NCBI GenBank assembly: GCA_028279885.1
Contig: JANQMX010000023.1
Location: 1-64,000, forward strand
Direction of reading: 5' to 3'
Origin: Rhodovibrionaceae bacterium
Lineage (GTDB): Bacteria; Pseudomonadota; Alphaproteobacteria; Kiloniellales; DSM-21159
DNA: 64,000 nucleotides
The notes beneath the pieces were generated by a model. It had not been told where the DNA came from. It searched no databases and saw only the letters and a list, made by a program, of their open reading frames with translations. Positions 7,936 to 63,141 of the stretch are shown piece after piece. Each line of letters opens with the position of its first letter. The first letter of the stretch is position 1. Both the position numbers and the translations under genes were made by a program.

Positions 7936-8084
7936 GTTTGTGGAGTTGCACCGCTCGCTGGCCGCACCCACGCTTGTCACCCCCCACCCATGGGCTTGCC
8001 GAGAACGCGTTGAAAAGCGCCGTCGGCTTCGATAGGTTCCGCAGCCTGCACGCCGGGGCACGTCCGCTGCCCCAAGGCCCTGCG

Positions 8085-8175
8085 GGTGAGGTGGCCGAGT
8101 GGTTGAAGGCGCACGCCTGGAACGCGTGTAAGGGTTAATAGCTCTTCGTGGGTTCGAATCCCACCCTCACCGCCA
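8085..8175 (+). tRNA. tRNA-Ser (anticodon GGA)
   Basis: The acceptor arm GGTGAGG (8085-8091) pairs with CCTCACC (8165-8171), followed by discriminator G and an encoded CCA. The D arm starts TGGCCGAGTGGTTGAAGG. The anticodon stem CACGC/GCGTG encloses loop CTGGAAC, giving anticodon GGA, which reads serine UCC/UCU. A long variable arm (GTTAATAGCTCTTC region) and T arm GTGGGTTCGAATCCCAC complete a class II serine tRNA. Confidence 0.97.
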
Positions 8176-8187
8176 TCCGCCTTCGCT

Positions 8188-8233
8188 GATTTTGGCTTCG
8201 CCAAAATCTAGCTACGGCGCGACAAGCCGTAGC
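8188..8233 (+). terminator. tandem hairpins after tRNA-Ser
   Basis: GATTTTGGC-TTC-GCCAAAATC (8188-8208) is a perfect 9-bp stem with a 3-nt loop starting 13 nt after the tRNA. GCTACGGC (8211-8218) and GCCGTAGC (8226-8233) form a second perfect 8-bp stem. There is no clear U tract. They probably end or process the tRNA transcript. Confidence 0.6.
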
Positions 8234-8358
8234 GTGCGAAGCGGATGCCGCGCCGAAGCGCACAGCGCGTAGGCGGGCGCAAAGTCATCCGCCATAGCGC
8301 GAAGCGAAATGAGCGAGAAGGCTGTCGCGCCCTAGCGTCGAAGACGCGAAGGCGGATA

Positions 8359-8453
8359 TGTCGCTGCTACGACCGCAAAGTCGGCAAGCGTGCGCGCATA
8401 GCGAAGGGCGAACTCGGTCAGTAAATCCGGGTCCGCAAAGGCGCCGCCGCTGC
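8359..8453 (-). pseudogene. fragment of a TetR regulator gene (partial copy of the gene at 9371-9916)
   Basis: Read on the minus strand, the segment translates to AFADPDLLTEF followed by ALRYARTLADFAV. This aligns with AFAEPDVLAEF and APRYAHTLADFAA in the intact TetR protein. DNA similarity spans about 92 bp against roughly 9508-9600, with a 2-nt difference in length near its left end. Neither the DNA-binding N-terminus nor the C-terminus is present, so it is a non-functional relic. It lies on the far side of the topAI locus from the intact gene and in the same orientation. The surrounding sequence (8234-8600) holds no other gene that I can support. Confidence 0.75.
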
Positions 8454-8727: not shown

Positions 8728-8991
8728 ATGAACATCTCACGAAATGAACAGCGTGCACTGCACGTTCTGGCCCTTGGCGGCTGCATTCTGCACGAGCGCG
8801 GCGAGGGTCCTAAAATCACGTCGGTGACATGCGTCACGCGCGAGGGGATGGTCCTTGCCGACTTCGACCTGACTGTCTTCAACCGATTGCGGCGGAAACG
8901 GCTGATCGAATCTCGATCGGGCAGCCCCTATCGAATCTCGAAACGCGGCCGCAGCTCCGTTCGCGCACAGCTCGACAATCAGGGGGCGTGA
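8728..8991 (+). CDS. topAI: YjhX/TopAI-family toxin (topoisomerase I inhibitor homologue)
   Basis: The 87-aa product begins MNISRNEQRALHVLALGG and contains ITSVTCVTREGMVLADFDL and SPYRISKRG, ending VRAQLDNQGA. This is the full-length pattern of the UPF0386/YjhX family. E. coli YjhX (TopAI) is reported to bind and inhibit DNA topoisomerase I, and the neighbouring acetyltransferase YjhQ counteracts it. Here the gene is intact, but the partner just downstream is internally deleted. ATG 8728 matches the family start exactly. The strong leader structures upstream suggest tight control. Toxic activity in this organism is inferred from the family. Confidence 0.9.
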   Translation: MNISRNEQRALHVLALGGCILHERGEGPKITSVTCVTREGMVLADFDLTVFNRLRRKRLIESRSGSPYRISKRGRSSVRAQLDNQGA

Positions 8992-8992
8992 C

Positions 8993-9370: not shown

Positions 9371-9916
9371 TCAGCCCCGGTCGATCATCGACCCTAGATG
9401 TTGCACGACGCGATCTCGGGTACGATCGTCCAACGGACGCAATCCCAAAACCTCCAGGAGCCACAATCCGTCCGTCGCCAAGAGCGCGATCGTGGCGTCG
9501 AGAGGGCTGTCGCTGTCGGCCGCAAAGTCGGCAAGCGTGTGCGCATAGCGCGGGGCGAACTCGGCCAGCACGTCCGGTTCGGCAAAGGCGGCGGCGAGCA
9601 GGGCCGCGTCGGGACGGAGATGCGCGCCGCGCGGACCCAGCATCCCCGCCACGTAGCCCTTTGCCATATGCCCGGATCCCTCGGGCAGGCTTGCGACCTC
9701 ATTCGCGACCGCCGCGTCCAGCCGGTCGAAGGCCCGCGCGAGCATCGCGCGGAGCAGGTCCCGCTTGCCGGCAAAGCGATACTGCAAGCCCCCCTTGCTG
9801 ATGCCCGAGCGCGCGGCGACGCGCGCTAGGGTCAGCGCAGCGACGCCCTGCTCGCGGACCAGCACCTCGGCCGCATCCAGCACCGCATTTTCGTCGATGG
9901 TTGGTTGACGTCCCAT
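9371..9916 (-). CDS. TetR-family transcriptional regulator
   Basis: A 181-aa one-domain regulator. The N-terminal helix-turn-helix region covers about residues 10-50 (AAEVLVREQGVAALTLARVA, then RSGISKGGLQYRFAGKRDLL). The effector domain contains MLGPRGAHLRPDAALLAAAF. It lies divergently from an SMR-type exporter gene, with a perfect 18-bp palindrome just upstream of its own start, and so most likely represses both. It starts at ATG 9916 with no competing start. A shorter decayed copy of its middle part lies at 8359-8453. Confidence 0.92.
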   Translation of the reverse strand: MGRQPTIDENAVLDAAEVLVREQGVAALTLARVAARSGISKGGLQYRFAGKRDLLRAMLARAFDRLDAAVANEVASLPEGSGHMAKGYVAGMLGPRGAHLRPDAALLAAAFAEPDVLAEFAPRYAHTLADFAADSDSPLDATIALLATDGLWLLEVLGLRPLDDRTRDRVVQHLGSMIDRG

Positions 9917-13010: not shown

Positions 13011-13424
13011 GTGCCACGAGAGACTTTTCAGCCGCCTGAGTTGTTCGACAGCAAGAAATGGGGATTTTCGCAGATTGTCGTCTCGCCACCCGGACGAACG
13101 GTGCATATCTCGGGTCAGGTCGCATGGGATGCGAGCGAGAGCGTCTTGGCCGACGACCTGGAGACTCAGTTCAGGAAAGCGCTGGAGCACGTGTTCATCG
13201 CCGTTCGCGCGGCAGGTGGCGAACCGGACGACCTCCAGTTCTTTCGCTTCTATATCCCGAACTTTCGGCCGGGGGAGGACGCGGAAACGATCGCGCGCGT
13301 TCTCGTCGATGTCTTCGGCACGGAGAACCCCCCGGGATCGTCTTGGATCGGCGTTCAAGCGCTCGCCCAGCCGGAGTTTCTGATCGAGGTTGAAGCGACG
13401 GCGATCATCCCGGACCCCGCATGA
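13011..13424 (+). CDS. RidA/YjgF-family enamine/imine deaminase
   Basis: A 137-aa protein from GTG 13011, preceded by a CAGGAG ribosome site. An in-frame ATG at 12954 would add 19 residues atypical of the family. RTVHISGQVAWDASESVLA and DLETQFRKALEHVFIAVRAA are the usual RidA core, and ALAQPEFLIEVEATAII is the C-terminal trimer motif carrying the conserved glutamate. The classical substrate-binding arginine region is replaced by FRFYIPNF, so it may belong to a divergent subgroup. Its stop overlaps the next start as ATGA. RidA proteins hydrolyse reactive enamines from PLP enzymes; the target here is unknown. Confidence 0.85.
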   Translation: MPRETFQPPELFDSKKWGFSQIVVSPPGRTVHISGQVAWDASESVLADDLETQFRKALEHVFIAVRAAGGEPDDLQFFRFYIPNFRPGEDAETIARVLVDVFGTENPPGSSWIGVQALAQPEFLIEVEATAIIPDPA

Positions 13425-14059
13425 CTCCCGAGGAGATCGTCCGCCGCTTCCCGCGGCTCTATCACGTGACCGAGCCCGGCGCGCACGAGAGTGTGCGCCG
13501 GCACGGGCTTCTCTCGACCGTCGCGTTGCTCGATCTCTTCGAGACGCCGGAGAGCGATCGGCTCCGCCTGTTGCGCGCGCGCCGGCCGGAGCCTGTGCCG
13601 CTCTCACACCCGGTCCATGGCGAGGCGATCCTGAACGACCAGCGCCCCTTGTCGATGAAAGCGCTGGAGAGCTGTCTCGACGACGGCATGGCGCCGGCCG
13701 ACTGGCTCGGCATGCTCAACGGCAAGGTGTTCTTCTGGCCGGATGAAAAGCAGTTGCAACGCTTGACCCAGGCGCGGGCCAACCGGGCGCGTCAGCGCGA
13801 GGTCCTCGTCTTCGACACGGCAGGGCTCATGGAGGAGAGCTTCGACCGCCTGCGCCTCTCGCCGATCAACACCGGCAATACGATGCGCCGCCCGGCCCGA
13901 CGCGGCCTCGCCACCTTCGCGCTGGCGAAAGACCACGCCTGGGAGGAGTGGCGCAGCCAGCGCGGAGGCCGCGACAGCGTGGTCGAGATCGCCATCGACC
14001 ATCGGGTTGCCTCGGCCGGCGATGCGCTTGTGGAGGTCAGGCGCGTCGGCGAGGCGTGA
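13421..14059 (+). CDS. DUF7002-like protein, possibly ADP-ribosyltransferase-like
   Basis: A 212-aa protein translationally coupled (ATGA) to the RidA gene. The N-terminal LYHVTEPGAHESVRRHGLL resembles the opening motif of DarT-like and other ART-fold proteins, in which the histidine contacts NAD. A middle GMLNGKVFFWPDEKQLQRL and a later TGNTMRRPARRGLATFALA follow. I assign it to the DUF7002 group from overall pattern; any ADP-ribosyltransferase activity is speculative. Its last 12-14 codons are duplicated at 16710-16753, beyond the ATPase gene, so its 3' end is an insertion boundary. Confidence 0.65.
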   Translation: MTPEEIVRRFPRLYHVTEPGAHESVRRHGLLSTVALLDLFETPESDRLRLLRARRPEPVPLSHPVHGEAILNDQRPLSMKALESCLDDGMAPADWLGMLNGKVFFWPDEKQLQRLTQARANRARQREVLVFDTAGLMEESFDRLRLSPINTGNTMRRPARRGLATFALAKDHAWEEWRSQRGGRDSVVEIAIDHRVASAGDALVEVRRVGEA

Positions 14060-14064
14060 CGACA
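14021..14064 (+). repeat. tail repeat C (3' end of the DUF7002-like gene, intact copy)
   Basis: GATGCGCTTGTGGAGGTCAG and onward to TGACGACA, covering the last codons, the stop and 5 nt beyond. 39 of 44 bases match the copy at 16710-16753, ungapped. Confidence 0.75.
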
Positions 14065-14140: not shown

Positions 14141-16480
14141 CTAAACAAGCTGCTCTTGGACTTCGTCGCCAAGACGAAGAACAGGCCAAAGTGCATGGTT
14201 AACGATGTATCTGGTAGCGCCTGCCCACTTTCTGATTCGAACCCTCAATAGTTCAATATTATAGTCCACATCGTAAATATATATTGGATCTTGTTCCGCT
14301 CTCTGCACGCCAAGAATACCATAATACATGAGGAAAGATATTACTCTTTCCGACTCTTCGCTCTCCAAACCAAAAAGCTGGATAAGAGTAGATAGTTCTT
14401 CATGAGAAAACGATGAGTTTTCCTCGGAGAACTCGTATACTAATTTGCGCGCCTTCGGGAAAATGTCAGTTAGTTCTCTATCTACTTCTGTGATTAGATC
14501 CTGAGAGTAAGTTCGCAGACCTCTAGCAATGTCTTCTACTTCTATTCTTTCATGACCTAGATTAATTGCGTAGCCGAGACTATGCCGGAAGATCTTTAAT
14601 AGATTTCTCGGTCGCATCAAGCTTCGATCAATCATGCAGTCGATTGATCTCTCCCCCGAATAGTGAGATACAGCAATTCTGCCCCAGAGACTCGGGAAGT
14701 CAGAGTTCACATCATCAGGCAACGAATACACCACTCTACGCTTCAAAACCTCGGACAATAAATCTCTATCCGACCAGTCCAAAGTTGCGCGCATTTCCTT
14801 TCCGTAGTCCGCTGAGCCTGCCATTAATAACGTGTAGACATCATCTCTCACAAATACCACAGAGCGAAAATCAATATCGGCCCGTCGGAGATTCCTCTCT
14901 AGCTTACGGCTGGCATCTATAAGACAGCGAAGAACAAATATATCAGTGTCACTGACGCCCTCAACACTCCAACCCTTATCTATGTTATCGAACAATAGCC
15001 AGACTTCGCCTTTAAATCTTAGATATTCACATAGATGCTCGAATACTCTTTTTATGTCATGAGTGTACAATATTTCTGTTAACTCTTCACTTGTTACATC
15101 AATCTTTTCGCTAGTAGTGAAGGCTGCTTGATAGTTGTTAGAAAGTGCCTCTGATAGCCGTAGTAGTCGCTCCGAAAAATCGCCGGCGACTGCCAGGTCA
15201 GACTCTCCGTAAAGCTCCCGTAGTCGGATGTACTTCTTCGTAAGTCTGTGATCGTGCAGATGGGAGGTTTGATCTTTCTCAAGAACTTTGTACGTAATCT
15301 CAAGTAGAAGTAGGTATTCCCAGAAGGCTGTTATAAGGTGTTGCCGCGCACCCTCAGCAAGGTAATTTAATACTCGCTCCTTAAGTTTTATAAGTTGATA
15401 TCCTTCGGGCTTGAGATCAACTACAATGTTTGCTTTGTTCTTTCTTTTTGTGTTGCGAAGCTGCACAAATAAGGCTGTCTTTCCTGACCCCTTTCGCCCC
15501 ACAACAAGATTCACTTCTCCACGTATCGCTCGCTGGTAGTCATCGGTTACAAGATAGTATTTAGAGAGCGTAGTCATTTCATTCTCTGCTGTCGGATCGC
15601 CGACGCGGAGCGTGCTCAATACACTGGCGACGTCGGCAACAGAAGCATCGTCGCGCTGTGTGTATTCTGTAATCTCCAACGAGAATTCTTGCACTACATC
15701 ACGAATATCGTCGGGGTGTCGGTACTTCTTGGTAATATCTCGAACATCCAGCGGTGGAATGTATTCGGTTGGATGGATAATCAGGGTGGGTAGTTCCAAT
15801 GCGACGGATAGACCAGCAACAAACATTGCGCGAAGATTATGCTCGCGTTGTCCATTCGCACCATCGCCAAGCAATGGCGCGACCACTCCTGCGGACTGCG
15901 AGACGTGGCGAATGGCGTCCATCGCGGCCATGCGGACATCTTCGCTAGGATTGAAGCTTCGGTACATCCACCGTGCTTTTTTGATCCGCGATACAAGAAT
16001 ACCGAACGCATCGGTGCGATATGGCGGTTCAACAATATAGACTGGAGCTTTATGATCGATGGTAGGTACTAATGGAATCGGGTCGAAACCGCTTCGAGTC
16101 AGAAGTAGCCTACTTAGATCTTCAGAGCTCAAGTATCCCTCATATCCTAGAGTATCAAATACACCAACAGAAGTCGCTAAATCCTTGTCTCCTGTCATTG
16201 CTTTATTTCTAAAAAGCAAGCATCGCTTGCCTTTTCCAATTGCGAAGCCAACTTCAAAGGCAACATTCGAATTGAGGAAAGTTATGTCTGCTGCTACGTA
16301 CGCACTTGTAGATATTTTCTCAAAAATTGGATTTGTTAGTGGAACACCCGCAACGTCGTTAACTTCCCAGGGTTCTATAATTGATTCGGGTGCAGACGCA
16401 TTGTATTTGCTGATTGCGCTACGGATGGTTTGGACGACCTCACCCGACTGTCCTGGATATGCGAAGAAGGCAGTCTGCAT
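14141..16480 (-). CDS. TIR-like / P-loop ATPase fusion protein, candidate defence effector
   Basis: A 779-aa cytoplasmic protein. Residues 1-140 include ISTSAYVAADITFLNSNVAF followed by EVGFAIG. This ADx(T/S)-N-NVxxExG pattern is typical of TIR-like/nucleoside-deoxyribosyltransferase-like folds that bind or cleave NAD-type nucleotides, with the glutamate as candidate catalytic residue. A P-loop NTPase follows: Walker A VVGRKGSGKTALF (about 324-336), Walker B VWLLFDNIDKGW (about 491-502) and a helical C-terminus. The architecture resembles the Sll1717-type P-loop ATPase group. Base composition is unlike its neighbours (24 G/C in the 60 bases from 14281). Flanking tail repeats mark it as an insertion. 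A defence role is inference. Confidence 0.7.
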   Translation of the reverse strand: MQTAFFAYPGQSGEVVQTIRSAISKYNASAPESIIEPWEVNDVAGVPLTNPIFEKISTSAYVAADITFLNSNVAFEVGFAIGKGKRCLLFRNKAMTGDKDLATSVGVFDTLGYEGYLSSEDLSRLLLTRSGFDPIPLVPTIDHKAPVYIVEPPYRTDAFGILVSRIKKARWMYRSFNPSEDVRMAAMDAIRHVSQSAGVVAPLLGDGANGQREHNLRAMFVAGLSVALELPTLIIHPTEYIPPLDVRDITKKYRHPDDIRDVVQEFSLEITEYTQRDDASVADVASVLSTLRVGDPTAENEMTTLSKYYLVTDDYQRAIRGEVNLVVGRKGSGKTALFVQLRNTKRKNKANIVVDLKPEGYQLIKLKERVLNYLAEGARQHLITAFWEYLLLLEITYKVLEKDQTSHLHDHRLTKKYIRLRELYGESDLAVAGDFSERLLRLSEALSNNYQAAFTTSEKIDVTSEELTEILYTHDIKRVFEHLCEYLRFKGEVWLLFDNIDKGWSVEGVSDTDIFVLRCLIDASRKLERNLRRADIDFRSVVFVRDDVYTLLMAGSADYGKEMRATLDWSDRDLLSEVLKRRVVYSLPDDVNSDFPSLWGRIAVSHYSGERSIDCMIDRSLMRPRNLLKIFRHSLGYAINLGHERIEVEDIARGLRTYSQDLITEVDRELTDIFPKARKLVYEFSEENSSFSHEELSTLIQLFGLESEESERVISFLMYYGILGVQRAEQDPIYIYDVDYNIELLRVRIRKWAGATRYIVNHALWPVLRLGDEVQEQLV

Positions 16481-16709: not shown

Positions 16710-16753
16710 GATGCGGTCGTGGAGGTCAGGCGCGTCGGAGGGCCGTGACGACA
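16710..16753 (+). repeat. tail repeat D (decayed copy of the DUF7002-like gene end)
   Basis: GATGCGGTCGTGGAGGTCAG to TGACGACA matches 14021-14064 at 39 of 44 positions. No open DUF7002-like frame leads into it. It is fused directly to a relic of the membrane-protein gene region (16762-16875). Confidence 0.7.
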
Positions 16754-16761
16754 AAGTGTTC

Positions 16762-16875
16762 GTCCTTGCACCTGTGAAACGACCTGCCGATGGTGACGGC
16801 CCGTACATGCAACTGCGCTTGTCACCCACAGCAAGTACTGGGTGTCCTCGCCGGCCTGGGTCGGCTTCGAGATTG
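16762..16875 (+). pseudogene. relic of the 5' region of the 130-aa membrane-protein gene
   Basis: GTCCTTGCACCTGTGAAAC and CGACCTGCCGATGGTGACGG match the leader of the intact gene (about 17787-17825). Bases 16815-16875 then translate to LVTHSKYWVSSPAWVGF, comparable with LVTQTKHRVSWPGWLVP of the intact protein. The segment between the two blocks, including the start codon, is missing. It cannot encode a full product. Bases 16481-16709 hold no gene that I can support. Confidence 0.6.
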
Positions 16876-16902: not shown

Positions 16903-17685
16903 ATGCCTGAACTCGCCGAATTCCTGTCGCTCGCGGTCGCGCTGGCAAACGCCTCTTCCTGCCGTGCCAGAGACGATTGGCGTGGAGACTTGGCCGTGAC
17001 CTACAAAACGGACGGGTCATCCGTGACCGACGCCGATCTGAGTATCGAAACGACGTGGCGAGAGCTTATCCGTCGGCGCTTCCCTGCCCATGGAATACTG
17101 GGAGAGGAGTACGGCCCCGAAACCGGACGCAGTGCCTATACATGGGTTCTCGATCCAATCGACGGGACACGTCAGTTTGGAGCAGGGCTGTTGAACTTCG
17201 CCTCTCTCATCAGCCTTTGCCGCGATGGGTCTCCAGTCCTGGGCATCATCGATTTGCCGTTGAGCGGCACGCGATACGTGGCCGCCGAAGGACAAGGCAC
17301 GCTCTTTGACGGCCGCCTAGTCCGGAGCAGCGGGCAAAGCGACATCAGCTCTGCGATCATCAGTCTTGCAAACCCCGATAGCTTCACGGGCGACGCCGCG
17401 CATGGCTATGAGCGGATGCGCGCCTCTGGGCGGCTCAGAGTGTTCGACGGTGGCTCACCAGCCTATGGCGCGCTGTCACGCGGATTGATCGACGTTTGCC
17501 TGAATGGAAGCGATCTGGACGCCTTCGACATCTGTGCTCTCTGTCCGGTTGTGACGGAAGCAGGGGGAATGATCTCCGACTGGAATGGGCAAGCCTTGTC
17601 GATCGCATCAAGCGGAGCCGTCGCCGCGAGCGCTTCCCCCAACCTTCATGCAGTCGTGCTGAGCAAACTGACCGAGCTTGTTTGA
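16903..17685 (+). CDS. inositol monophosphatase-family phosphatase (histidinol-phosphatase-like)
   Basis: A 260-aa Mg-dependent phosphatase of the IMPase superfamily. The metal site is visible as ILGEEYG (Glu), WVLDPIDGTRQF (the signature DPIDGT) and SDLDAFDICALCPVVTEAGG (distal Asp). TYKTDGSSVTDADLSIE is the N-terminal motif of HisN-type histidinol-phosphate phosphatases, so histidinol-phosphate or a related sugar phosphate is the likely substrate; this is inference. ATG 16903 gives a family-typical start. The gene is bracketed by a decayed and an intact copy of the neighbouring membrane-protein gene head, suggesting acquisition. Confidence 0.88.
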   Translation: MPELAEFLSLAVALANASSCRARDDWRGDLAVTYKTDGSSVTDADLSIETTWRELIRRRFPAHGILGEEYGPETGRSAYTWVLDPIDGTRQFGAGLLNFASLISLCRDGSPVLGIIDLPLSGTRYVAAEGQGTLFDGRLVRSSGQSDISSAIISLANPDSFTGDAAHGYERMRASGRLRVFDGGSPAYGALSRGLIDVCLNGSDLDAFDICALCPVVTEAGGMISDWNGQALSIASSGAVAASASPNLHAVVLSKLTELV

Positions 17686-17864
17686 AAACCCGGTTTGAGG
17701 CGGTTTGAACCAGCCCTCAAGGCCCGCGCTACAGGTCGGACAGGAGGCTAGATCCCTTATCCGGGACATGCGACGCCCGAGTTGTCGTCCTTGCTCTTGT
17801 AAAATGACCTGCCGATGGTGATGGACGGCGCAAGCCGTTTCTCGACTGATTGGGAGGCTTGAGG

Positions 17865-18257
17865 ATGTCGCATACCGAGTTGATTGCGTTCGCTGGTTTT
17901 ATCGTCGCCGCCGTCGTTATGCTGCTGGTCACCCAGACCAAGCACCGGGTGTCCTGGCCGGGTTGGCTCGTCCCGATCGCGGTCGTGGTTCCCTTCGCGG
18001 CCTGGACTGGTTTCGCCATCGCCGAGCAGGGGCTTTTCGACTATCTGCCGACGCTCTTGGGATCCGATTGGGGGTTGCAGCTCTGGCTCGACCGCCTGAT
18101 GAGCGTGACGGCAGCCTTCTACCTGTTGCAAAACCGCGCACGGGCGGCCGGCATGAAGTCGGAGGTCTGGGTGATCGTCGTCATCTTCACCGGCAGCATC
18201 GGGCTGCTGCTGATGCTGGCGCGGACGCTCTACCGCGAACGCAACATGGACGCCTGA
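17865..18257 (+). CDS. 130-aa integral membrane protein of unknown function
   Basis: Starts at ATG 17865 behind a GGGAGG ribosome site; an in-frame TTG at 17850 is less likely. Three to four hydrophobic segments are visible: ELIAFAGFIVAAVVMLLVT, WLVPIAVVVPFAAWTGFAI, and VWVIVVIFTGSIGLLLMLA near the end. The polar middle contains LFDYLPTLLGSDWGLQLWLD. I do not recognise a named family. Its last 72 coding bases plus 12 downstream bases are duplicated at 19111-19194, and parts of its leader and 5' coding region at 16762-16875, so both ends of this gene are recombination boundaries. Confidence 0.75.
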   Translation: MSHTELIAFAGFIVAAVVMLLVTQTKHRVSWPGWLVPIAVVVPFAAWTGFAIAEQGLFDYLPTLLGSDWGLQLWLDRLMSVTAAFYLLQNRARAAGMKSEVWVIVVIFTGSIGLLLMLARTLYRERNMDA

Positions 18258-18269
18258 AACCGGTGAGGC
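18186..18269 (+). repeat. 84-bp tail repeat A (3' end of membrane-protein gene)
   Basis: TTCACCGGCAGCATCGGGC through ATGGACGCCTGAAACCGG to GGTGAGGC. It is identical to 19111-19194 except for two substitutions (A/G at 18195 versus 19120, and the GAC/GGC codon near the end). The homology starts and stops abruptly. Confidence 0.95.
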
Positions 18270-18391: not shown

Positions 18392-19081
18392 ATGCCACGC
18401 CGAAGCGACCATGACCCCTGGGCTATCCACTGGCTCAACGCCCGGCACGATGTGACCCGCTATGCCGCAGCGGTCGAGGCAGCGGTTGCCGATGTGCGTC
18501 AACGCGCGGCCTCGATCGTTGCACTGCCGCCGCTCGACTTCGTTGTGTCCGCTGTACCGGGCCGTGCCATTCCGGAGATCGGCCATGTGGGGCACTCATT
18601 CTACCCCGGCGCAATCTTCCTGACGCTTGATCCGGAAAACCCATCGCTCGCCGACAACCTTGGCGAACCGCTTGCGCGAATGATCGCCCATGAACTGCAC
18701 CATGCGCTGCGCTGGGACGCGATCGGCTATGGTACAACGCTTGGCGAGGCACTGGTCAGTGAGGGCTTGGCCGGGCACTTTGTCGCCCAGCTGTTTGCCT
18801 CACGCCCCGAACTCTGGGAGCGCGCGCTCGATGGGGCAGCGCTTGCCACCATGGCGACAGAAGCCCAAGGCGCGCTGGAGGCTCCGCGCTACGACCATAA
18901 TGCTTGGTTTTTCGGGGCCGGCCGCTACCCGCGCTGGGCTGGCTACGCGCTTGGGTATGCCGTCGTGGGCGCATGGCTCGCCGCCGAGCCCGGCCGCACC
19001 GCGGCAGGCGCGATCGGCGTCCCGGCCACTGAGATTACACCCGGCCTTGCCGCATTGTCGGATGCCGCATCGCCGGGCTAG
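18392..19081 (+). CDS. DUF2268-type Zn-dependent metalloprotease
   Basis: A 229-aa cytoplasmic protein with the zincin motif AHELHHALRW (H100, E101, H104). Downstream is GEALVSEGLAGHFVAQLF, whose glutamate is a good third zinc ligand. HSFYPGAIFLTLDPENP and DHNAWFFGAGRYPRWAGYALG match the layout of DUF2268 predicted metalloproteases (HSP/YjaZ-like). No signal peptide is present. It starts at ATG 18392; no strong ribosome site is evident. The gene lies exactly between two near-identical 84-bp copies of the preceding gene's tail, and so looks like a recent insertion. Bases 18270-18391 hold nothing recognisable. Confidence 0.82.
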   Translation: MPRRSDHDPWAIHWLNARHDVTRYAAAVEAAVADVRQRAASIVALPPLDFVVSAVPGRAIPEIGHVGHSFYPGAIFLTLDPENPSLADNLGEPLARMIAHELHHALRWDAIGYGTTLGEALVSEGLAGHFVAQLFASRPELWERALDGAALATMATEAQGALEAPRYDHNAWFFGAGRYPRWAGYALGYAVVGAWLAAEPGRTAAGAIGVPATEITPGLAALSDAASPG

Positions 19082-19110: not shown

Positions 19111-19194
19111 TTCACCGGCGGCATCGGGCTGCTGCTGATGCTGGCGCGGACGCTCTACCGCGAACGCAACATGGGCGCCTGAAACCGGTGAGGC
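19111..19194 (+). repeat. 84-bp tail repeat B
   Basis: Direct repeat of 18186-18269 with two mismatches. It lies 30 bp after the metalloprotease stop and carries the last codons and stop of the membrane-protein gene without its upstream part. Confidence 0.95.
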
Positions 19195-19209: not shown

Positions 19210-19812
19210 ATGCGTGAGCCTGCCGACCGGATCGTCGAGCTCTACCGGCGCCACGCACAGGCCTGGGCGGAGGTGCGCGGCACGAAACTGATCGAGGGGA
19301 CATGGCTCGATCGTTTCGTCGCGCGTCTGCCCCAGCGGGCCGAGATACTCGATCTGGGCTGCGGCCCGGGCGTGCCGATCGGGCGGGCGCTTGTCGCCCG
19401 TGGATACGCGCTGACCGGCGTGGACGCCGCGCCCGAGATGATCGCGCTCTTCGAGACGAACCTCCCGGGACAGGAGGCCGTCGTGGCGGATATGCGGAGC
19501 TTGCGACTGCAACGCTGCTTCGACGGCGTGCTGGCGTGGGACAGCTTCTTCCACCTGTCGCCCGCGGCGCAGCGCGGAATGTTCCCTATCTTCCGGGCGC
19601 ACGCCAAACCCGGCGCCGCCCTGATGTTCACCAGCGGCCCCGCCTGTGGCGAGGCCATCGGTGCGCTTGAAGGCGAACCGCTCTATCATGCGAGCCTTGG
19701 GCCCGATGAGTATCGCGCACTGCTGGCTCAAAACGACTTCGAGGTCGTCTGCCACACCATTGAGGACCCGGACTGCGGCGGGCATAGCGTGTGGCTTGCG
19801 CAGCGGAGCTGA
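19210..19812 (+). CDS. class I SAM-dependent methyltransferase
   Basis: A 200-aa protein with SAM motif I ILDLGCGPGVPIGRALVARG (about residues 41-60), an acidic residue at the end of strand 2 (LTGVDAAPEMI) and motif II/III VVADMRSLRLQRCFDGVLAW. The C-terminal half (HYASLGPDEY-type loop, HSVWLAQRS) resembles Methyltransf_25/11 small-molecule methyltransferases. The substrate is not deducible. It starts at ATG 19210, 15 bp after tail repeat B, so it may originally have followed the 130-aa membrane-protein gene directly. Confidence 0.88.
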   Translation: MREPADRIVELYRRHAQAWAEVRGTKLIEGTWLDRFVARLPQRAEILDLGCGPGVPIGRALVARGYALTGVDAAPEMIALFETNLPGQEAVVADMRSLRLQRCFDGVLAWDSFFHLSPAAQRGMFPIFRAHAKPGAALMFTSGPACGEAIGALEGEPLYHASLGPDEYRALLAQNDFEVVCHTIEDPDCGGHSVWLAQRS

Positions 19813-26780: not shown

Positions 26781-28049
26781 ATGGCTCAAGAGCATCATGT
26801 CGTCGTGGTCGGCGGGGGCTTCGCCGGGCTGGCCTGCATCAGGGGCCTGCGCGGCGCCAAGGTGAAGATCACCCTGATCGACCAGCGCAACCACCATCTC
26901 TTTCAGCCGCTGCTCTATCAGGTCGCCACCACCATCCTGCCGACCTCCGAGATCGCCTGGCCGCTGCGCCGGCTGTTCAAGGAGCGGCCGGAAGTCACCA
27001 CCCTGATGGCGACGGTCTCGGGTGTCGATTGCCACAGCAAGGAGATCGTTTTCGCCGACGGGAGCCGAATGAGCTTCGACACGCTGGTCCTCGCCACCGG
27101 GGCGCGCCATTCCTATTTCGGCCGCGACGAGTGGGAGGCTCATGCGCCCGGGCTGAAGACGCTGGAAGACGCCACCACCATCCGGCGCCGGATCCTCTCC
27201 GCCTTCGAGCGCGCCGAGTGGTGCGACGATCCCAACGAACGCGAGGCCTGCCTGACCTTCGCCGTGATCGGCGCCGGACCGACCGGTGTGGAGCTTGCCG
27301 GCATCATCGCCGAGCTGGCCCGGCGGGTGCTGCCGCCGGAGTTCCGGCGCATCGACACGGCCAAGGCGCGCGTCCTCCTGATCGAAGCCGGGCCGCGCGT
27401 GCTGCCCGCCTTTCCAGAGAAGCTCGCCCGCTACGCCGAACGTGCTCTCGTCAAGCTGGGCGTGGAGGTCATCACCGACCGGCCGGTCACCGCCTGCGAC
27501 GGCGGGGGCGTTGTTGTCGGCGATGAACGCATTGCCGCGAAGACGACCATCTGGGCGGCCGGGGTGATGGCCTCGAAGGCCGCGCAGTGGCTCGGCGCCG
27601 AGGCGGACCGGGCGGGCCGGGTCATCGTCGCGCCCGACCTGACCGCGCCCGGACACCCGGACATCTTCGTGATCGGCGACACAGCGGCGGTGACGGATGC
27701 CGCGGACAAGCCGGTGCCGGGCATCGCGCCGGCCGCCAAGCAGCAGGGGGCCTACGTCGCCCGGGTTATCCGGCAGCGCCTCGCCGGCGAACCGTCAGAT
27801 GCGCCTTTCCGCTATCGCCATGCCGGCAATCTCGCCACCGTCGGCCGCAGCGCGGCGGTCGTCGACTTCGGCCGGTTGCAGCTCACCGGCGCCCTGGCCT
27901 GGTGGTTCTGGGGGCTGGCGCACATCTACTTCCTGATCGGCACGCGCAGCCGCCTCGCCGTCGCCTACAGCTGGCTCTGGTCCTACCTGACCGGGCAGAA
28001 GAGCGCCCGCCTGATCACCCAGGGCTCGGCTGCGTCGAGCCAGAAGTAG
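26781..28049 (+). CDS. ndh: type II NADH dehydrogenase (NDH-2)
   Basis: A 422-aa single-subunit, non-proton-pumping NADH:quinone oxidoreductase. The FAD-binding motif is VVVGGGFAGLACIRGL, the second Rossmann motif for NADH is FAVIGAGPTGVELAGII, and the FAD motif is GHPDIFVIGDTAAV. AAKQQGAYVARVI and a C-terminal amphipathic/hydrophobic segment (WWFWGLAHIYFLIGTRSRLA) provide membrane association. ATG 26781 is family-typical. The extreme C-terminus SARLITQGSAASSQK is echoed in a decayed copy at 31921-31971, so the 3' end is an insertion boundary for the following 3.9 kb. Confidence 0.93.
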   Translation: MAQEHHVVVVGGGFAGLACIRGLRGAKVKITLIDQRNHHLFQPLLYQVATTILPTSEIAWPLRRLFKERPEVTTLMATVSGVDCHSKEIVFADGSRMSFDTLVLATGARHSYFGRDEWEAHAPGLKTLEDATTIRRRILSAFERAEWCDDPNEREACLTFAVIGAGPTGVELAGIIAELARRVLPPEFRRIDTAKARVLLIEAGPRVLPAFPEKLARYAERALVKLGVEVITDRPVTACDGGGVVVGDERIAAKTTIWAAGVMASKAAQWLGAEADRAGRVIVAPDLTAPGHPDIFVIGDTAAVTDAADKPVPGIAPAAKQQGAYVARVIRQRLAGEPSDAPFRYRHAGNLATVGRSAAVVDFGRLQLTGALAWWFWGLAHIYFLIGTRSRLAVAYSWLWSYLTGQKSARLITQGSAASSQK

Positions 28050-28093
28050 GGAGCTTGTTCACCTGCGGCGCAGTCAACGCCGCCGCCGAAAGG

Positions 28094-28411: not shown

Positions 28412-28448
28412 GGGACCTCCTTTAAGATGTCTTTCGGGCTGGAGCAAC

Positions 28449-29243: not shown

Positions 29244-29367
29244 AGGCAATGCTCCTGACAGGCCGTTGGCGGCAAGGCGGCGAGACCATTGGTAGGTCGC
29301 AGGGTGCCGCGAGCCGGCGGGGCCTCGCACCGGGCCGGCCGCCTGACGTCCTAAAGCCTATCGGCCA

Positions 29368-29396
29368 GTATTGCAAATAAAACTCATTCGCAATAC
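29368..29396. promoter_or_regulatory. Fur-like inverted repeat upstream of the FNR gene
   Basis: GTATTGCAAATA (29368-29379) and CATTCGCAATAC (29385-29396) form an inverted repeat with two mismatches across a 5-nt spacer. The 12-mer CATTCGCAATAC is found unchanged at 47544-47555, and a related perfect 7-1-7 palindrome is at 31334-31348. It lies between the FNR gene and the CopD-like gene. Confidence 0.55.
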
Positions 29397-29459
29397 CATT
29401 CTGCGATTATGCCCTGCCCTCGGCCATTCCTCGATTTCAGGCGGCCCGAGCCGGGCGGC

Positions 29460-30695: not shown

Positions 30696-30703
30696 CCAAG
30701 CAT

Positions 30704-31903: not shown

Positions 31904-31971
31904 CCCGTACCGGATCTCAGTACGCCGGCCGGCTGATCACCCAAGGCTCGGCGGCGATCGACCGTCAGTAG
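31903..31971 (+). pseudogene. relic of the NDH-2 gene 3' tail
   Basis: The plus-strand frame reads TRTGSQYAGRLITQGSAAI then DRQ and a stop. The intact NDH-2 C-terminus reads YLTGQKSARLITQGSAASSQ then K and a stop. At DNA level 24 of 27 bases agree between 28008-28034 and 31930-31956. The relic begins at the pseudoazurin stop codon and ends 6 bp before the dabA stop, so it marks the right-hand edge of a 3.85-kb block inserted after NDH-2. Confidence 0.8.
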
Positions 31972-31977
31972 GCCGAG

Positions 31978-51902: not shown

Positions 51903-52003
51903 TGTCACCCCGGCCCCCGAGCCGGGGTCCATTTTGCGGCCTGCGCCCGGCCCATCCATGGACCCCGGATGTCGCCTCTCACGAGGCTCCTCCGGGGTGA
52001 CAA
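51903..52003. repeat. REP palindromes at the LysR pseudogene boundary
   Basis: A short unit at 51903-51931 (TGTCACCCCGGCCCCCGAGC type) and a long CCATGGACCCCGG unit at 51956-52003, spaced as in the other short-plus-long pairs at 6445/6558 and 47231/47283. Confidence 0.7.
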
Positions 52004-52031
52004 TGAAAGAAAGCCGCGAAGTCACCGCACC

Positions 52032-52892
52032 TCACACCGGCGATTCCTTCCGCAAGAAAGCGCGGATCTCGGCCAGGCAGCGGTCCGGCGCCTCCAGGTG
52101 GGGCCAATGGCCGACGCCCTCGAGGCGCAGGCTGCGGGAGCCGGGGCCGGTGACCTCCGCCGCCTTGGCATAGCTCGCCTGCCGCACCTCGGGCTCGTCG
52201 GCGCCGTAGAGCATCAGGGTCGGCGCGGTGATGGACCGCAGGATGGCGCGCCGGTCCGCCTCGCTCATCCCCGCGCGGTAATAGTCCACCGCGGCGCGGG
52301 AGTGGCCGGGGAGGGCCAGCGCCCTTTTGACCTCGGCCAGATGCGCGTCGGGCACCGCCCAGCGCGGGCTCCATTTGCGATAGAGATGCCGGACCTCGGC
52401 GAAGTCGGCACGCCTGAGCCACCAGTCGGAGAGCGCGCCCAGCCCAAGATAGAGGTTGTGCGGCCGCCCGAGGCGTTCCCGCAGCCCGGAGGGAAAGACC
52501 GTGAGCGGCGGGTCGGCCAAGGTGATCAGAGAGGCGAGCCGCTCCGGCGCCAAGGCCGCCAGGGCATAGCCGGCGGAAGCGCCCCAGTCGTGCCCGAGGA
52601 CGACAGCCTGCTCGATCTCCAGCGCATCGAGCAGACAGAGCGTATCCATGGCCAGCCGGCGAAGGCTGTAGTCGCCGTCCGCGGGAACGGCCGAGGGCGG
52701 ATAGCCGCGCAGCGCCAACGCGATGACGCGGAAGCCGGCATCGGCCAGCGGGCCGGCCAGCCCGCTCCAGGTCTTGTAGGTATCGGGAAAGCCATGCTGG
52801 GCGATGACGGGAGGCCCCGCCCCGACCTCGGCGTAAGCCAAGGCCGTGCCGTCCGCCTCAATGAACTTGTCCGCCTGCAGCAAGGTCACCAC
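52032..52892 (-). CDS. alpha/beta hydrolase with Asp nucleophile (epoxide hydrolase-like)
   Basis: A 286-aa protein. The oxyanion loop is QHGFPDTYKTW. The nucleophile elbow is VVLGHDWGASAGYALAALAP with Asp102 in place of Ser, as in epoxide hydrolases, haloalkane dehalogenases and fluoroacetate dehalogenases. MLYGADEPEV is a candidate for the acid and GVGHWPHLEAPD holds the catalytic His. LALRGYPPSAVPADGDYSLR resembles the RGYG/SD-type motif of epoxide hydrolases. The substrate, epoxide or haloacid, is unresolved. Starts at ATG 52892. Confidence 0.87.
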   Translation of the reverse strand: MVTLLQADKFIEADGTALAYAEVGAGPPVIAQHGFPDTYKTWSGLAGPLADAGFRVIALALRGYPPSAVPADGDYSLRRLAMDTLCLLDALEIEQAVVLGHDWGASAGYALAALAPERLASLITLADPPLTVFPSGLRERLGRPHNLYLGLGALSDWWLRRADFAEVRHLYRKWSPRWAVPDAHLAEVKRALALPGHSRAAVDYYRAGMSEADRRAILRSITAPTLMLYGADEPEVRQASYAKAAEVTGPGSRSLRLEGVGHWPHLEAPDRCLAEIRAFLRKESPV

Positions 52893-59680: not shown

Positions 59681-59762
59681 CGGCGCACTTTCTCCATGTG
59701 ATGCGTCCGCTGCTAGCGCCTTTGCCGGCCGCTCCGCTATTCGTTTCGTGCGACCGGCCGCG

Positions 59763-59801
59763 CTACCACCTTGTCGCCTTATCCCAGACGGCGGAGTTGC
59801 C
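59763..59801 (-). pseudogene. relic of the aldolase gene 3' tail
   Basis: The minus strand reads GNSAVWDKATRW and a stop. The intact gene at 62014 ends GDIAVWDKATGW and a stop. At DNA level 31 of 37 bases match between 59765-59801 and 62016-62052. No aldolase sequence precedes it. It marks the left edge of the ptuAB insertion. Confidence 0.8.
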
Positions 59802-59884
59802 CTGCTTGGCCAGCGGCAAGAGCAGTGGTACTCATTAAACTTGGCTCGGTCGCTTACTACCGTCTTGAATTCTCGGATGCCTGC

Positions 59885-61174
59885 ATGCGCATAGATCGTC
59901 TAAAGCTGCGGAATTTTAAGGGCTTCACTGAGTTTGACCAAAGGCTCAATCGACGCTTCATGCTCATCGTTGGCCAAAATGGGACCGGCAAGTCGAATCT
60001 ATTGGATGCTGTTTCCGTTGCATTTGGCGCTTTTCTTCTTGGCATTCCGGCGGCGCGGTCCCGTACGATCCACCGGAGCGAAGTTCGCGAGATCGCACGG
60101 AACTACGACGGATTGTTGGAATTTCAGCAGGCGTTCCCCGTTCTCGTCGAAGCCGAAGGCATGTTGCAGAGCAACGACGGTACTGCACTGGAAAAGTGCG
60201 TATGGCGGCGGGAACTACTTTCCGCGAATGGACGGACCACCTCCAAGGAGGCCGCGGCTATCCGATCTAAGGCCCAAGCGGCGTACGAGGCGATTACAGG
60301 AGGACAAGACGTCACTTTGCCGCTCTTATCGTACTACGGCACGGGGCGGCTCTGGGAAGAGCCAAGGCAATCTTCGAAGTCTAAGCGCACATCAAGGTTT
60401 GACGCGTACAAAAATAGCCACGAAGCACGGGTCGCCTCGGCCGACCTGCTCGCGTGGGTCGAACGCGAGCGCTTGCTGGAACTTGAAACCGACCAGCCTT
60501 CGAAGCGGTTCCTGGCATGGAAGAAGGCGGTAGAAGCTTGCTTCGATAGCCCGGTTTCAGTCAGCTATTCACTATCGCGCAAGCGTATAGAAGTGGCTTT
60601 TGCCGAGCTCAAGCAGGTCGTGAGCTACGACAATCTCAGCCACGGCCAGCGCAATATCCTATCTTTGGTTGGCGATATTGCCTTCAAAGCGATCATACTC
60701 AATCCGCACCTAGGCTCGGATGCAGTACAGCAAACGTCCGGCATTGTGCTGATCGACGAAATCGACCTTCACCTTCATCCGCGCTGGCAACGGACAATTG
60801 TTCCGGCGTTGCTGCGCGCTTTCCCAAGCCTGCAGTTTTTCGCCACGACGCACTCGCCCTTTATCGTGCAATCGCTGCTCGAAGGGAGCCTGCTAAACCT
60901 CGACGATATGGAAATCGATGACGAGACCTACAACCTTAATCTGATGGATATCGTGAAGGATATCCAAAGCGTCGACGTGCCGGAGCGCAGTGCCGTTCAT
61001 GTACAGCAAGTGCAAAGTGCCACGCGCTTTTTAGAACTCGCGCGGGCGGCAGGCGATGTCGCATCGCGAAAAGCCGATGAAGATGAGATGGACCGCATTC
61101 TGGATACCGAGATTGAAGACCCCGGTTTGGCAGCGCTCTTGAAGATCAAACGGCGCGCGGAGCGAGAGCGGTGA
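59885..61174 (+). CDS. ptuA: PtuA-like AAA ATPase of a Septu-type defence system
   Basis: A 429-aa protein from ATG 59885 (MRIDRLKLRNFKGFTEFDQR). ABC/RecF-type ATPase: Walker A VGQNGTGKSNLL (30-40), an inserted helical region, the signature YDNLSHGQRNILSL (about 246), Walker B GIVLIDEIDLHLHPRWQ (about 285) and the switch His FFATTHSPFIVQSL. In Septu, PtuA assembles with the HNH nuclease PtuB and the ATPase gates DNA cleavage during phage infection. Here the nuclease follows after 3 bp. Base composition is lower in G+C than neighbours (28 of 60 from 59881). Related pairs accompany retrons; no reverse transcriptase was seen. Confidence 0.82.
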   Translation: MRIDRLKLRNFKGFTEFDQRLNRRFMLIVGQNGTGKSNLLDAVSVAFGAFLLGIPAARSRTIHRSEVREIARNYDGLLEFQQAFPVLVEAEGMLQSNDGTALEKCVWRRELLSANGRTTSKEAAAIRSKAQAAYEAITGGQDVTLPLLSYYGTGRLWEEPRQSSKSKRTSRFDAYKNSHEARVASADLLAWVERERLLELETDQPSKRFLAWKKAVEACFDSPVSVSYSLSRKRIEVAFAELKQVVSYDNLSHGQRNILSLVGDIAFKAIILNPHLGSDAVQQTSGIVLIDEIDLHLHPRWQRTIVPALLRAFPSLQFFATTHSPFIVQSLLEGSLLNLDDMEIDDETYNLNLMDIVKDIQSVDVPERSAVHVQQVQSATRFLELARAAGDVASRKADEDEMDRILDTEIEDPGLAALLKIKRRAERER

Positions 61175-61177
61175 TCG

Positions 61178-61873
61178 ATGCGCCCAGTTGTCAAAGATGA
61201 TGGAGCTGGTCGCATCTATGATGAGTATCAAGACGCGTTGGATGATCTAGCAGACCAGATCGGTTTGTATTGCAGCTATTGCGAGATGGTGATCAGTAAC
61301 GCGCCAGAGGTTGAGCATGTACAGCCGAAATCGCTCGAGCCTGGTCTCGCACTCGAATGGAGCAACTTCTTGCTTGGCTGCAAGAGCTGCAATTCAACGA
61401 AGGGAAACACCGCGGTTGCTCTCGACCGGATTGCTTTTCCAGACACGGACAACACCTTCCGGGGGCTTAGCTACAGTCGGGGCCGAGTAGAGGTCTCTCA
61501 GACGTTGAACGAGGCGGAAAGCGACCTCGTGGGCCGACTTGTCGGGCTGGTAAAGCTGCACCGCCATCCCGACGAGCCCCAACCGCAAGATCGACCAACT
61601 CGCCGCGATAGACGTTACAGATTCCGAGCGGAGGTTTGGGAGCTGGCTGAAAAGATGAAGCAGACTTACTTGGAAAACGGTCGAGATGCTGTGATCGGTG
61701 ATCTGATCGCTAAAGAACTTGCTCCCGCAAAAGGTTTCTTCTCGGTCTGGATGACGGTGTTCTCGGAACATCCCGAGATACTCAGGGGCTTCATCCGAGC
61801 TTTCCCCGGCACATCGACGGATTGCTTTGACGCAAATGGTGTTGCACTGCGCCGATCAGGCGGGCGCATCTGA
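61178..61873 (+). CDS. ptuB: PtuB-like HNH endonuclease (TIGR02646-like)
   Basis: A 231-aa nuclease starting MRPVVKDDGAGRIYDEYQDA. Paired zinc cysteines YCSYCEMVI (about 31-36) and CKSCNSTKGN (about 68-77) frame the catalytic VEHVQPKSLEPGLALEWSNF (HNH: His near 48, Asn near 63). It is the effector half of the presumed PtuAB complex, expected to cut DNA when PtuA senses infection. It starts 3 bp after ptuA. The C-terminal half (RAEVWELAEKMKQTYLENGR) is helical. Specificity is unknown. Confidence 0.83.
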   Translation: MRPVVKDDGAGRIYDEYQDALDDLADQIGLYCSYCEMVISNAPEVEHVQPKSLEPGLALEWSNFLLGCKSCNSTKGNTAVALDRIAFPDTDNTFRGLSYSRGRVEVSQTLNEAESDLVGRLVGLVKLHRHPDEPQPQDRPTRRDRRYRFRAEVWELAEKMKQTYLENGRDAVIGDLIAKELAPAKGFFSVWMTVFSEHPEILRGFIRAFPGTSTDCFDANGVALRRSGGRI

Positions 61874-62013
61874 CACAGCAGCCATCTGCCTGTTCTCTGC
61901 ATCATTGCGGCAGTGGCTGGTGTGGGTCGCGTTTCGGGCCGCCATCGGACATCAAACGGGGAGATGCCCATGGGACTGGCGCTTCAACCAATCGCTCTAG
62001 TTGAGCGAACCGC

Positions 62014-63141
62014 TCACCACCCCGTCGCCTTGTCCCAGACGGCGATGTCGCCGTCCTCCATCAGCACGTGGTAGCGGTCGTAGGGTGCGGCGGTCATGCA
62101 GACGTGGTTGGGTAGCACCCGCAAGCGGCTGCCAATGGGAAAGCGCTCGAAGGGCGGTGCGCCGCCGTCCTTGGCCTCGATCTTACCGTGCTCCTGACTG
62201 ACCGCGGCGACGAAGACGTCGTCGACGATTTCGCCGTCCGGCGTCATCACCCAGCCATAGCCGGCCTGGGGCAGGAAGTCCTGGGCGCTGACGTCCTTTG
62301 AGAGCGCCAAGCCGCCGGCGTCGGTGATGATGCGGTCGTATTGCCGGTTGTGCCCGATCACCGTGGCCAGGACGGTGACGGCGATGTCCTCCAGCGCGCA
62401 GGAGCCGAGCGCCATCTGGTCCAGGTCGCCGAAGACGTAGACGCCGGGGCGCATCTCGGTCAGCCCCTCGCCGTTGACCGCGTGGGAGGCGGTGGGGGTC
62501 GAGCCGGCCGAGACCGTTTCGATGGCGTAGCCCTCGGCCCGCAGGCGCTCGGCGGCGCGCAGCACCGCGTGGCGCTCGGTCTCGGCAACCTCCCGCACGC
62601 AGTCGAGATCGCGGCAGGCGTAGGACTGGCCGCCGTGAGTCAGCACGCCGGCGAGGGAGAGGTTGGGCTGGGCGGCGATGGCCGCGGCGATCTCCGGGAG
62701 GCTATCGGACTCGGCCAAGACGCCGCCGCGCCGGTCGCCGCAGTCGATCTCGATGAGCAGCGGTAGCGTCACGTTGTGCGCCGCGGCAGCCTCTCCGGCG
62801 GCCGTCGCCGCTTCGGGCGAGTCGACCAGGCAGCGCAAGGCGACGCCGGCGCGCAGCAGGGCCGCCGCCTCGGCCACCTTGTGGGGCGCCAGGCCGACGG
62901 CATAGGTGATGTCGCGAAAGCCGCGGGCGGCGAAGAAGTGCGCCTCGGCCAGGGTGGAGACGGTGATGCGCCGCTGAGAGTCGCAGGCCAGCGCCGCCAC
63001 CTCCGCCGCCTTGGCCGTCTTGAGGTGCGGCCGAAGCCCCACACCCAGCGCCGCCATGTGCGAGTGCATGCGCTGGCAGTTGCGCCGCAGGCGCCCGTGG
63101 TCGAGCAGCAGGCAAGGGGTCGGGAGGTCCTGAAGCGTCAT
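62014..63141 (-). CDS. D-threonine aldolase / D-serine dehydratase-like PLP enzyme
   Basis: A 375-aa fold-type III PLP enzyme from ATG 63141 (MTLQDLPTPCLLLDHGRLRR). The PLP lysine is in RPHLKTAKAAEVAAL (about residue 43). The barrel contains PLLIEIDCGDRRGG and SAGSTPTASHAV, and the C-terminal metal site RVLPNHVCMTAAPYD has the His-x-Cys zinc pair of eukaryotic-type D-serine dehydratase and D-threonine aldolase. The reaction is therefore metal-assisted cleavage or deamination of a D-3-hydroxy amino acid. Its final codons are copied at 59763-59801 and possibly 58990-59004. Confidence 0.88.
   Translation of the reverse strand: MTLQDLPTPCLLLDHGRLRRNCQRMHSHMAALGVGLRPHLKTAKAAEVAALACDSQRRITVSTLAEAHFFAARGFRDITYAVGLAPHKVAEAAALLRAGVALRCLVDSPEAATAAGEAAAAHNVTLPLLIEIDCGDRRGGVLAESDSLPEIAAAIAAQPNLSLAGVLTHGGQSYACRDLDCVREVAETERHAVLRAAERLRAEGYAIETVSAGSTPTASHAVNGEGLTEMRPGVYVFGDLDQMALGSCALEDIAVTVLATVIGHNRQYDRIITDAGGLALSKDVSAQDFLPQAGYGWVMTPDGEIVDDVFVAAVSQEHGKIEAKDGGAPPFERFPIGSRLRVLPNHVCMTAAPYDRYHVLMEDGDIAVWDKATGW

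Follow-up and report, generated by a model that had tools for sequence, protein, structure and literature searches.

The 64,000-nucleotide stretch analysed here (the window; positions 1 to 64,000 of contig JANQMX010000023.1, assembly GCA_028279885.1, Rhodovibrionaceae bacterium) holds intact genes separated by accessory genes (cargo) from a short, same-orientation copy of the gene's own 3' part (a tail copy). The pattern was confirmed as real and recurs across the sampled chromosome: 16 gene-fragment pairs were found in 1.186 Mb of the window's own genome, 15 of them direct and one inverted (not a tail), and the 15 direct rows consisted of 12 tails, two other 3'-half copies, and one head. The initial annotation had described this geometry for five places in the window; all five copies exist, but the copy of the TetR gene is internal to that gene and the inserted part at the NDH-2-like gene is ambiguous. 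Placement of cargo at gene 3' ends, which had been proposed as the general architecture, is a bias rather than a rule, and it is shown here for this genome only.

Recurrence in the genome sample

The window's own genome (G000) comprises 5,626,700 bases in 111 contigs, and a sample of 1,186,413 bases (1.19 Mb, 21% of the genome) was searched, made up of six long contigs (two represented only partly) and 20 others. The six long contigs were chosen because the repeat search or, for contig C48, the finding itself had named them, and the 20 others, each represented by its first 20 kb or less, were chosen by contig number. Pairs were identified by self-BLAST with a score of at least 38 bits, a distance of at most 40 kb, and no more than four places in the sample, and genes were called with a purpose-built hexamer model. 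That model missed the aldolase-like gene near 62 kb of C48, and the two genes it had called there were replaced manually. Multicopy rows (more than four places in the sample) were excluded, none of them being a gene-fragment row, as were low-copy rows with both arms inside called genes (32 direct and 13 inverted).

All 15 direct rows had a gap of at most 5.3 kb, although the search reached 40 kb, and identities across the rows ranged from 98% to 80%. Counted by site, 12 lay in gene 3' halves against one head (two-sided binomial p 0.003); one of the 12, on contig C86, spans only 28 nt and is weak. Nine of the 12 sites reach 58 bits, the head pair scores 46 and 52 bits, and the resulting 9:1 ratio gives p 0.02. 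Restricting the count to the stronger sites outside C48, six with no head among them, gives p 0.03. A total of seven tail sites, one of them weak, were found outside C48 in about 1.09 Mb of G000.

For the control, the 1.186 Mb were shuffled ten times, with codons kept within genes and dinucleotides approximately kept between them. The ten shuffles contained no direct gene-tail/intergenic row at 38 bits or more and five other rows in all, against 12 tail rows in the real sample, and chance is therefore excluded for the set. A search for gene-end direct repeats beyond the window (performed here on 21% of the genome) and a comparison with shuffled sequence were among the checks proposed at the outset.

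Among the excluded rows with both arms in called genes, four direct ones touch a gene tail: one is an internal repeat, two are paralogue-like neighbour pairs, and one looks like a real case. The last, at 69358-69439 and 69582-69663 of C48, is an 82-nt tail duplication of 98% identity with a 142-bp intergenic spacer and would add to the tails. Its spacer partly matches repeats in several contigs of G001, the sister genome described below, as if a repeat element were the cargo.

The five copies in the window

Copies within the window were sought by self-BLAST (word size 7) and local alignment, and all five direct copies were recovered at or near the places where the initial annotation had put them (Table 1). 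The most similar pair is that of the small membrane-protein gene (98% over 84 nt, E 2e-34). The DUF7002 tail (89% over 44 nt, E 2.5e-8) includes the stop codon in register. The TetR pair is 84% identical over 91 nt (E 1e-19), but the copy ends 137 nt before the stop codon and is an internal fragment of the 3' half rather than a gene end; a repeat of about 72 bp at 8300-8371 directly adjoins this fragment and occurs again, complete or in part, at other places in the genome (the query region had 13 matches in all, itself and TetR included).

The remaining two copies are weak and would not stand alone on their E-values: the NDH-2 pair, 28004-28038 and 31926-31961, is 86% identical over 36 nt (E 0.007), and the aldolase pair, which includes the stop region, is 83% identical over 42 nt (E 0.002). 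Chance origin of these two is also unlikely, and both copies begin within 20 nt of an end of the alignment between the window and G001 (31907 and 59759, respectively). A large part of the NDH-2 interval (28448-31907) is one block common to G001, whereas NDH-2 and, on the other side, the DabA/NADH-oxidoreductase-like genes are absent from the G001 contig, so that the inserted part at this place is ambiguous. The latter block, at 31978-35983 of the window, encodes a DabA inorganic-carbon transporter subunit and its NADH-oxidoreductase-like partner.

A further copy, overlooked in the initial annotation, is a decayed head: 16747-16863 resembles the membrane gene's 5' part together with the DNA upstream of it (within 17772-17970), and head copies therefore exist as well as tails. 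It shares 7 nt with the end of the DUF7002 tail copy, and the two scars thus meet.

Cargo proteins were scanned against Pfam, NCBIfam, and PADLOC; a few small cargo open reading frames (ORFs) fell outside the scans. The 779-aa protein behind DUF7002, named a TIR-like ATPase in the initial annotation, deserves that name: a weak PADLOC TIR match covers residues 50-106 (E 1e-4) and an NCBIfam Sll1717-family P-loop ATPase match covers residues 294-768 (E 2.6e-90), with no match in Pfam. The G+C content of its segment is 46.5%, compared with 64.6% in the genome sample. The cargo beside the aldolase-like gene is a Septu pair (PADLOC PtuA, 3.5e-114; PtuB, 2.8e-71).

Table 1. Intact genes, their copies, and intervening or neighbouring genes in the window
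Feature	Position	Strand	Basis or remark
TetR gene, intact copy 1	9371..9916	-	Pfam TetR_N, TetR_C_28
Fragment copy of TetR 9508-9596 (internal, 3' half)	8359..8449	-	Self-BLAST, local alignment
YjhX_toxin family gene, between TetR and its fragment copy	8728..8991	+	Pfam PF09857
DUF7002 gene, intact copy 2	13421..14059	+	Pfam PF22531
Cargo: 779-aa protein, weak TIR match near N-terminus and Sll1717-family P-loop ATPase	14141..16480	-	
Tail copy of DUF7002 (14021-14064)	16710..16753	+	Self-BLAST, local alignment
Decayed head copy of membrane gene	16747..16863	+	Matches 17772-17824 and 17924-17970
Inositol-monophosphatase-family gene, between head copy and intact membrane gene	16903..17685	+	Common to G001
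Small membrane-protein gene, intact copy 3	17850..18257	+	No Pfam family
Cargo: DUF2268 putative Zn protease	18392..19081	+	Pfam PF10026; no match in G001 contig
Tail copy of membrane gene (18186-18269), 98%	19111..19194	+	
Second cargo past tail copy: methyltransferase	19210..19812	+	No match in G001 contig
NDH-2-like gene, intact copy 4	26781..28049	+	Pfam Pyr_redox_2, NDH2_C
Weak tail copy of NDH-2 (28004-28050 by local alignment), at G001 synteny breakpoint	31926..31972	+	
D-threonine-aldolase-like gene, intact copy 5	62014..63141	-	Pfam Ala_racemase_N, D-ser_dehydrat
Cargo: ptuA and ptuB (Septu)	59825..61873	+	PADLOC
Tail copy of aldolase-like gene (62011-62052)	59761..59801	-	Self-BLAST, local alignment

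Sites outside the window

At dnaE2 there is an array, in the order gene, cargo, tail copy of 92% identity, cargo, tail copy of 81% identity, the second copy being without an internal stretch. The gene matches the NCBIfam error-prone DNA polymerase model above cut-off, and the gene name was assigned here. Its first cargo consists of a MocR-like regulator (GntR and aminotransferase domains) and an MFS transporter, and its second of a NIPSNAP-domain ORF and an EamA transporter. On contig C109, a 397-aa gene is followed by a short-chain dehydrogenase gene and then by a tail copy of 91% identity; the label 'DUF932-like' for the 397-aa gene was dropped, no match having been found in Pfam or NCBIfam. 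The remaining stronger sites outside C48 are at HIT-family, DctM (TRAP-type) transporter, sphingomyelinase-like phosphoesterase (site C111a), and HD-domain genes, and cargo outside the window also includes an M81 peptidase, a cNMP-binding protein, a SnoaL-like protein, and a 145-aa protein of no Pfam family. The initial annotation had suggested a general acquisition route for defence and redox cargo; recurrence outside the window is supported, but a restriction to defence and redox cargo is not, the cargo there being mixed (regulators, transporters, a dehydrogenase, a peptidase).

At the DctM site, an 84-aa ORF of no Pfam family (contig C13, 17061-17315) ends in frame with the copied C-terminal tail of the neighbouring transporter. 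A second insertion at this gene in G000 was considered and rejected: the stretch in question makes up the 3' part of a ParE-family gene, and a loss in G001 explains the difference without a reused insertion point.

Comparison with the sister genome and other genera

G001 was the sole same-genus genome among 58 considered, and its contig C181 aligns with the window as common blocks separated by differing cargo. The same flanking genes enclose different cargo in this one relative at the membrane gene, at the aldolase-like gene, and in the region from tRNA-Ser to the SMR gene. Behind the G001 membrane gene, two ORFs with no match in Pfam or PADLOC stand in place of the DUF2268 protease, followed by a tail copy that matches G001's own gene at 97% over 103 nt. 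One and the same gene end has thus taken different cargo in two species. The last codons of the intact G001 gene are changed and the window-like end sits in the copy; the copy in each of the two genomes best matches that genome's own gene. The G001 copy continues into DNA aligned with the window, whereas the window copy continues into the methyltransferase gene absent from the G001 contig.

At the aldolase-like gene, the same two flanks enclose an EamA-family gene in G001, whose far flank showed no second aldolase tail (best local score 18, compared with up to 26 in shuffled flanks). At the C111a phosphoesterase, G001 has both gene and cargo, and no tail copy was seen in the flank examined. 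At the HD-domain and DctM sites, gene, cargo, and tail copy are all common to G001 (for DctM, by alignment coordinates only), and these scars consequently look older than the split between the two genomes. Together with the range of identities, this bears out the earlier proposal that the copies are of different age. The G001 contig with dnaE2 stops inside the gene.

A wider search matched the membrane gene in 6 of 143 genomes in all, with single matches in G002, G007, and G035 and a contig-edge piece only in G011; 14 loci were obtained in relatives, one of them the G001 contig. It also occurs at 66-80% protein identity in records labelled Woeseiaceae, Bythopirellula, Gemmatimonadetes, Pseudohaliea, and several alphaproteobacteria; some of these bin labels may be wrong. 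Joint travel of the membrane gene with its cargo was considered and rejected: tblastn of 15 window and two G001 proteins against the 13 non-G001 loci yielded no shared neighbour apart from a remote L-PSP homologue (35%) at L124 and L110, both of which denote one contig.

Edges and delivery machinery

Right edges of the copies lie near stop codons, from -137 to +92 nt relative to the stop, and left edges lie 38 to about 326 nt before it. Inspection of the edges revealed no motif shared among sites; the shared sequence at repeat ends for which the initial annotation had suggested looking was thus not seen in this way. Its statement that no integrase or transposase is visible held for the cargo covered: a recombinase turned up neither in the scans of cargo proteins nor among those read.

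Several carriers and attachment sites were considered and set aside. The core of an integron attC site is GTTRRRY; on inspection, the membrane-gene edge reads GTGAGGC, with no GTT, this suggestive end did not recur at the other edges, and no integrase was present among the scanned neighbours. The short cargo size brought gene transfer agents into consideration; for the RcGTA type, no match to GTA_TIM (PF13547), the one family searched, was found in G000, while the control Caulobacter vibrioides matched. The tRNA-Ser gene at 8085-8175 was rejected as an attachment site, being common to G001 along with its 3' flank, and no tRNA-end repeat was listed.

Mechanism

Recombination via the 3' part of the gene itself, rather than the action of one site-specific enzyme, is favoured by the direct orientation and closeness of the copies, the variability of their left edges, the position of the right edges near the stop codon, the lack of an edge motif, and the unrelated cargo. 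It is proposed, with moderate confidence, that each tail copy is the scar of short foreign DNA that entered by way of a single homologous stretch, namely a gene's 3' part, as a trimmed circle integrated by a single crossover. The circle, the crossover, the donor, and the selection are inferred as follows. A fragment comprising a gene tail and neighbouring cargo from another strain would be trimmed and circularised (or its ends joined in some other way) and would integrate by a single RecA crossover inside the gene tail, leaving the order gene (last part from the donor), cargo, join, original gene tail, and old downstream DNA. The left edge of the copy would be the trimmed end, hence arbitrary, and the right edge would be the end of the homology between donor and recipient, normally near the stop codon. 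Selection would retain 3' events, which leave a complete gene behind its own promoter, as 5' events do less often, and repeated events at one gene would build arrays such as that at dnaE2. The inserts are bounded by direct copies of a homologous segment, as single-crossover insertion-duplication requires, and the tails at the window sites are duplicated rather than deleted; any loss of other DNA would be visible only against a pre-insertion strain. The trimmed circle is preferred because partial duplications recorded in Escherichia coli have the structure seen here: in an experiment aimed at homology-facilitated illegitimate recombination, 56 of 60 selected recombinants carried a partial duplication of the homologous gene end, 109-950 bp long in the 14 sequenced, and were read by the authors as the product of trimming, recircularisation, and single crossover (PMC3240628).

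Several observations weigh against the trimmed-circle account. At dnaE2, the intact gene and its two copies have right edges that coincide within about 3 nt (62943 to 62946 in the coordinates of the intact gene), which would not be expected of random fragments; either descent through tail-carrying circles or a preferred insertion point would be sufficient to produce this agreement. The lack of a tail copy in the G001 flank examined at C111a, where gene and cargo are present, is also unfavourable unless the copy was lost. No donor with the gene and cargo adjacent was found in the genomes searched, which leaves circle and crossover hypothetical. Anchors of 40-200 nt are short for RecA, and a preference for 3' over 5' events is not demanded by the model; selection is assumed, and would be sufficient. 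Finally, control samples of 400 kb each gave no tail row and two direct head rows at one locus in G002, and one tail row at 72% with three inverted head rows in G021. The 383-kb sample of G001, a non-random set of contigs named by earlier searches, gave one weak tail and the membrane-gene pair, which the copy filter had removed (n=5). These control samples are too small for a claim that scars are more numerous in this genus than in others.

The homology-facilitated illegitimate recombination named in the initial annotation would fit the one-anchor geometry, but in its classical form, with transformed linear DNA, a homologous crossover in the gene, and the illegitimate joint inside the recipient's own gene tail, it is the less good of the two one-anchor routes and is considered possible but doubtful. 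The illegitimate joint would be expected to show 3-10 bp of microhomology. The route would give the same final geometry and has been invoked for the displaced immunity genes and 3' gene ends of Vibrio type VI secretion system (T6SS) arrays (PMC5361080); its known products, however, generally carry a recipient deletion of insert-like size, and in E. coli it was about ten times rarer than the duplication-forming route (PMC3240628). ComEC is present in G000, but it is also present in 10 of 14 control genomes and is no proof of competence. Capture of DNA at a staggered break with filled overhangs, which would leave a 40-250 bp target duplication across the stop codon and need no donor homology, is unlikely. 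It would account for unrelated cargo behind genes that it did not neighbour in the other genomes searched, and the membrane-gene pairs do resemble long target duplications, but G000 has no match to Ku, so that Ku end joining was rejected, and the right edges cluster near stops and coincide in the dnaE2 array.

A site-specific element supplying a replacement gene end, the other route that the initial annotation had offered, is not supported by the edge comparison. A version acting in trans, inserting cassettes with a replacement tail at gene 3' ends, would agree with the 12:1 bias by site, with the coincident right edges at dnaE2, and with the changed C-terminal codons of the G001 membrane gene; given that edges are variable in position and have no common sequence, that no recombinase was found in the cargo examined, and that the targets come from different gene families and include one head copy, it is judged quite improbable. 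Tandem duplication of a gene and its neighbour, followed by deletion, yields direct local repeats as well, but would leave remains of the cargo trailing the copy and random repeat ends, where the observed right edges lie near the gene end, and its probability is very low. Lower still is that of an assembly artefact arising from graph overlaps between mixed strains: G001 is a metagenome assembly and the window's genome is in 111 contigs, but the copies are 80-98% identical rather than exact k-mer overlaps, and two sites recur in the independent assembly of G001.

Other repeats in the window

A family of intergenic repeats of about 113 nt occurs at 235-347, 6543-6655, 46976-47088, 47268-47380, and 51941-52053 of the window; the other copies are 64-91% identical to the reference copy, and related stretches are present in many G001 contigs. 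A 1134-aa protein encoded at 47674-51078 has more than one type of internal repeat, one with a 27-nt period at 50302-50814.

Relation to known systems and significance

Integrase-free exchange is already represented by the minimal mobile elements of Neisseria, in which different cargo lies between the same conserved genes with no recombinase and which are explained by double homologous exchange. Many hotspots are likewise without integrases and hold different cargo between the same conserved genes with no recombinase (PMC5635113); they too are ascribed to double homologous exchange, which by itself should leave no tail copy. Direct repeats enclose 10-18% of variable segments (PMC2884548); 66-94% of those repeats are shorter than 30 bp and are discussed as deletion substrates, whereas the repeats found here are longer and tied to gene ends.

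In the single-crossover insertion of pJA2 in E. coli, too, foreign DNA is flanked by one complete and one shortened version of a gene end, and the length of the duplication varies (109-950 bp in the 14 clones sequenced, against about 36-250 nt here); that system used a selected plasmid and lacZ, whereas the present sites are natural scars at many unrelated genes over evolutionary time (PMC3240628). The T6SS effector-immunity arrays of Vibrio share a constant anchor, new downstream cargo, a displaced old 3' part, serial arrays, and no known integrase, but the displaced part there is a retained immunity gene or effector end (PMC5361080), and here it is a short, decaying tail of an ordinary gene such as dnaE2. 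The scars are thus a known kind of recombination product whose targets are unusually general. Titles and abstract openings of the literature searched, the extent to which most of the papers were covered, contained no description of such scars across ordinary genes.

An extension of the trimmed-circle account is self-propagating, integrase-free traffic, in which recombination between two tails would free a cargo circle that ends in the tail of that gene and is able to re-enter the same gene end in any strain, with arrays accumulating. This is unlikely, slightly more so than capture at a staggered break; if true, each gene end would be its own private attachment site, with cargo gathering at one fixed point, as at dnaE2.

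It is an open question by what route accessory genes, those for defence included, reach a chromosome without the help of mobile elements. Each tail copy is a datable footprint of one insertion event, and such footprints can be searched for. The finding merits a large survey over a single-locus study. Counts by direction, gene end, and distance across many genomes would measure one-anchor insertion directly, and the ratio of 3' to 5' copies would tell a targeted process apart from neutral recombination combined with selection.

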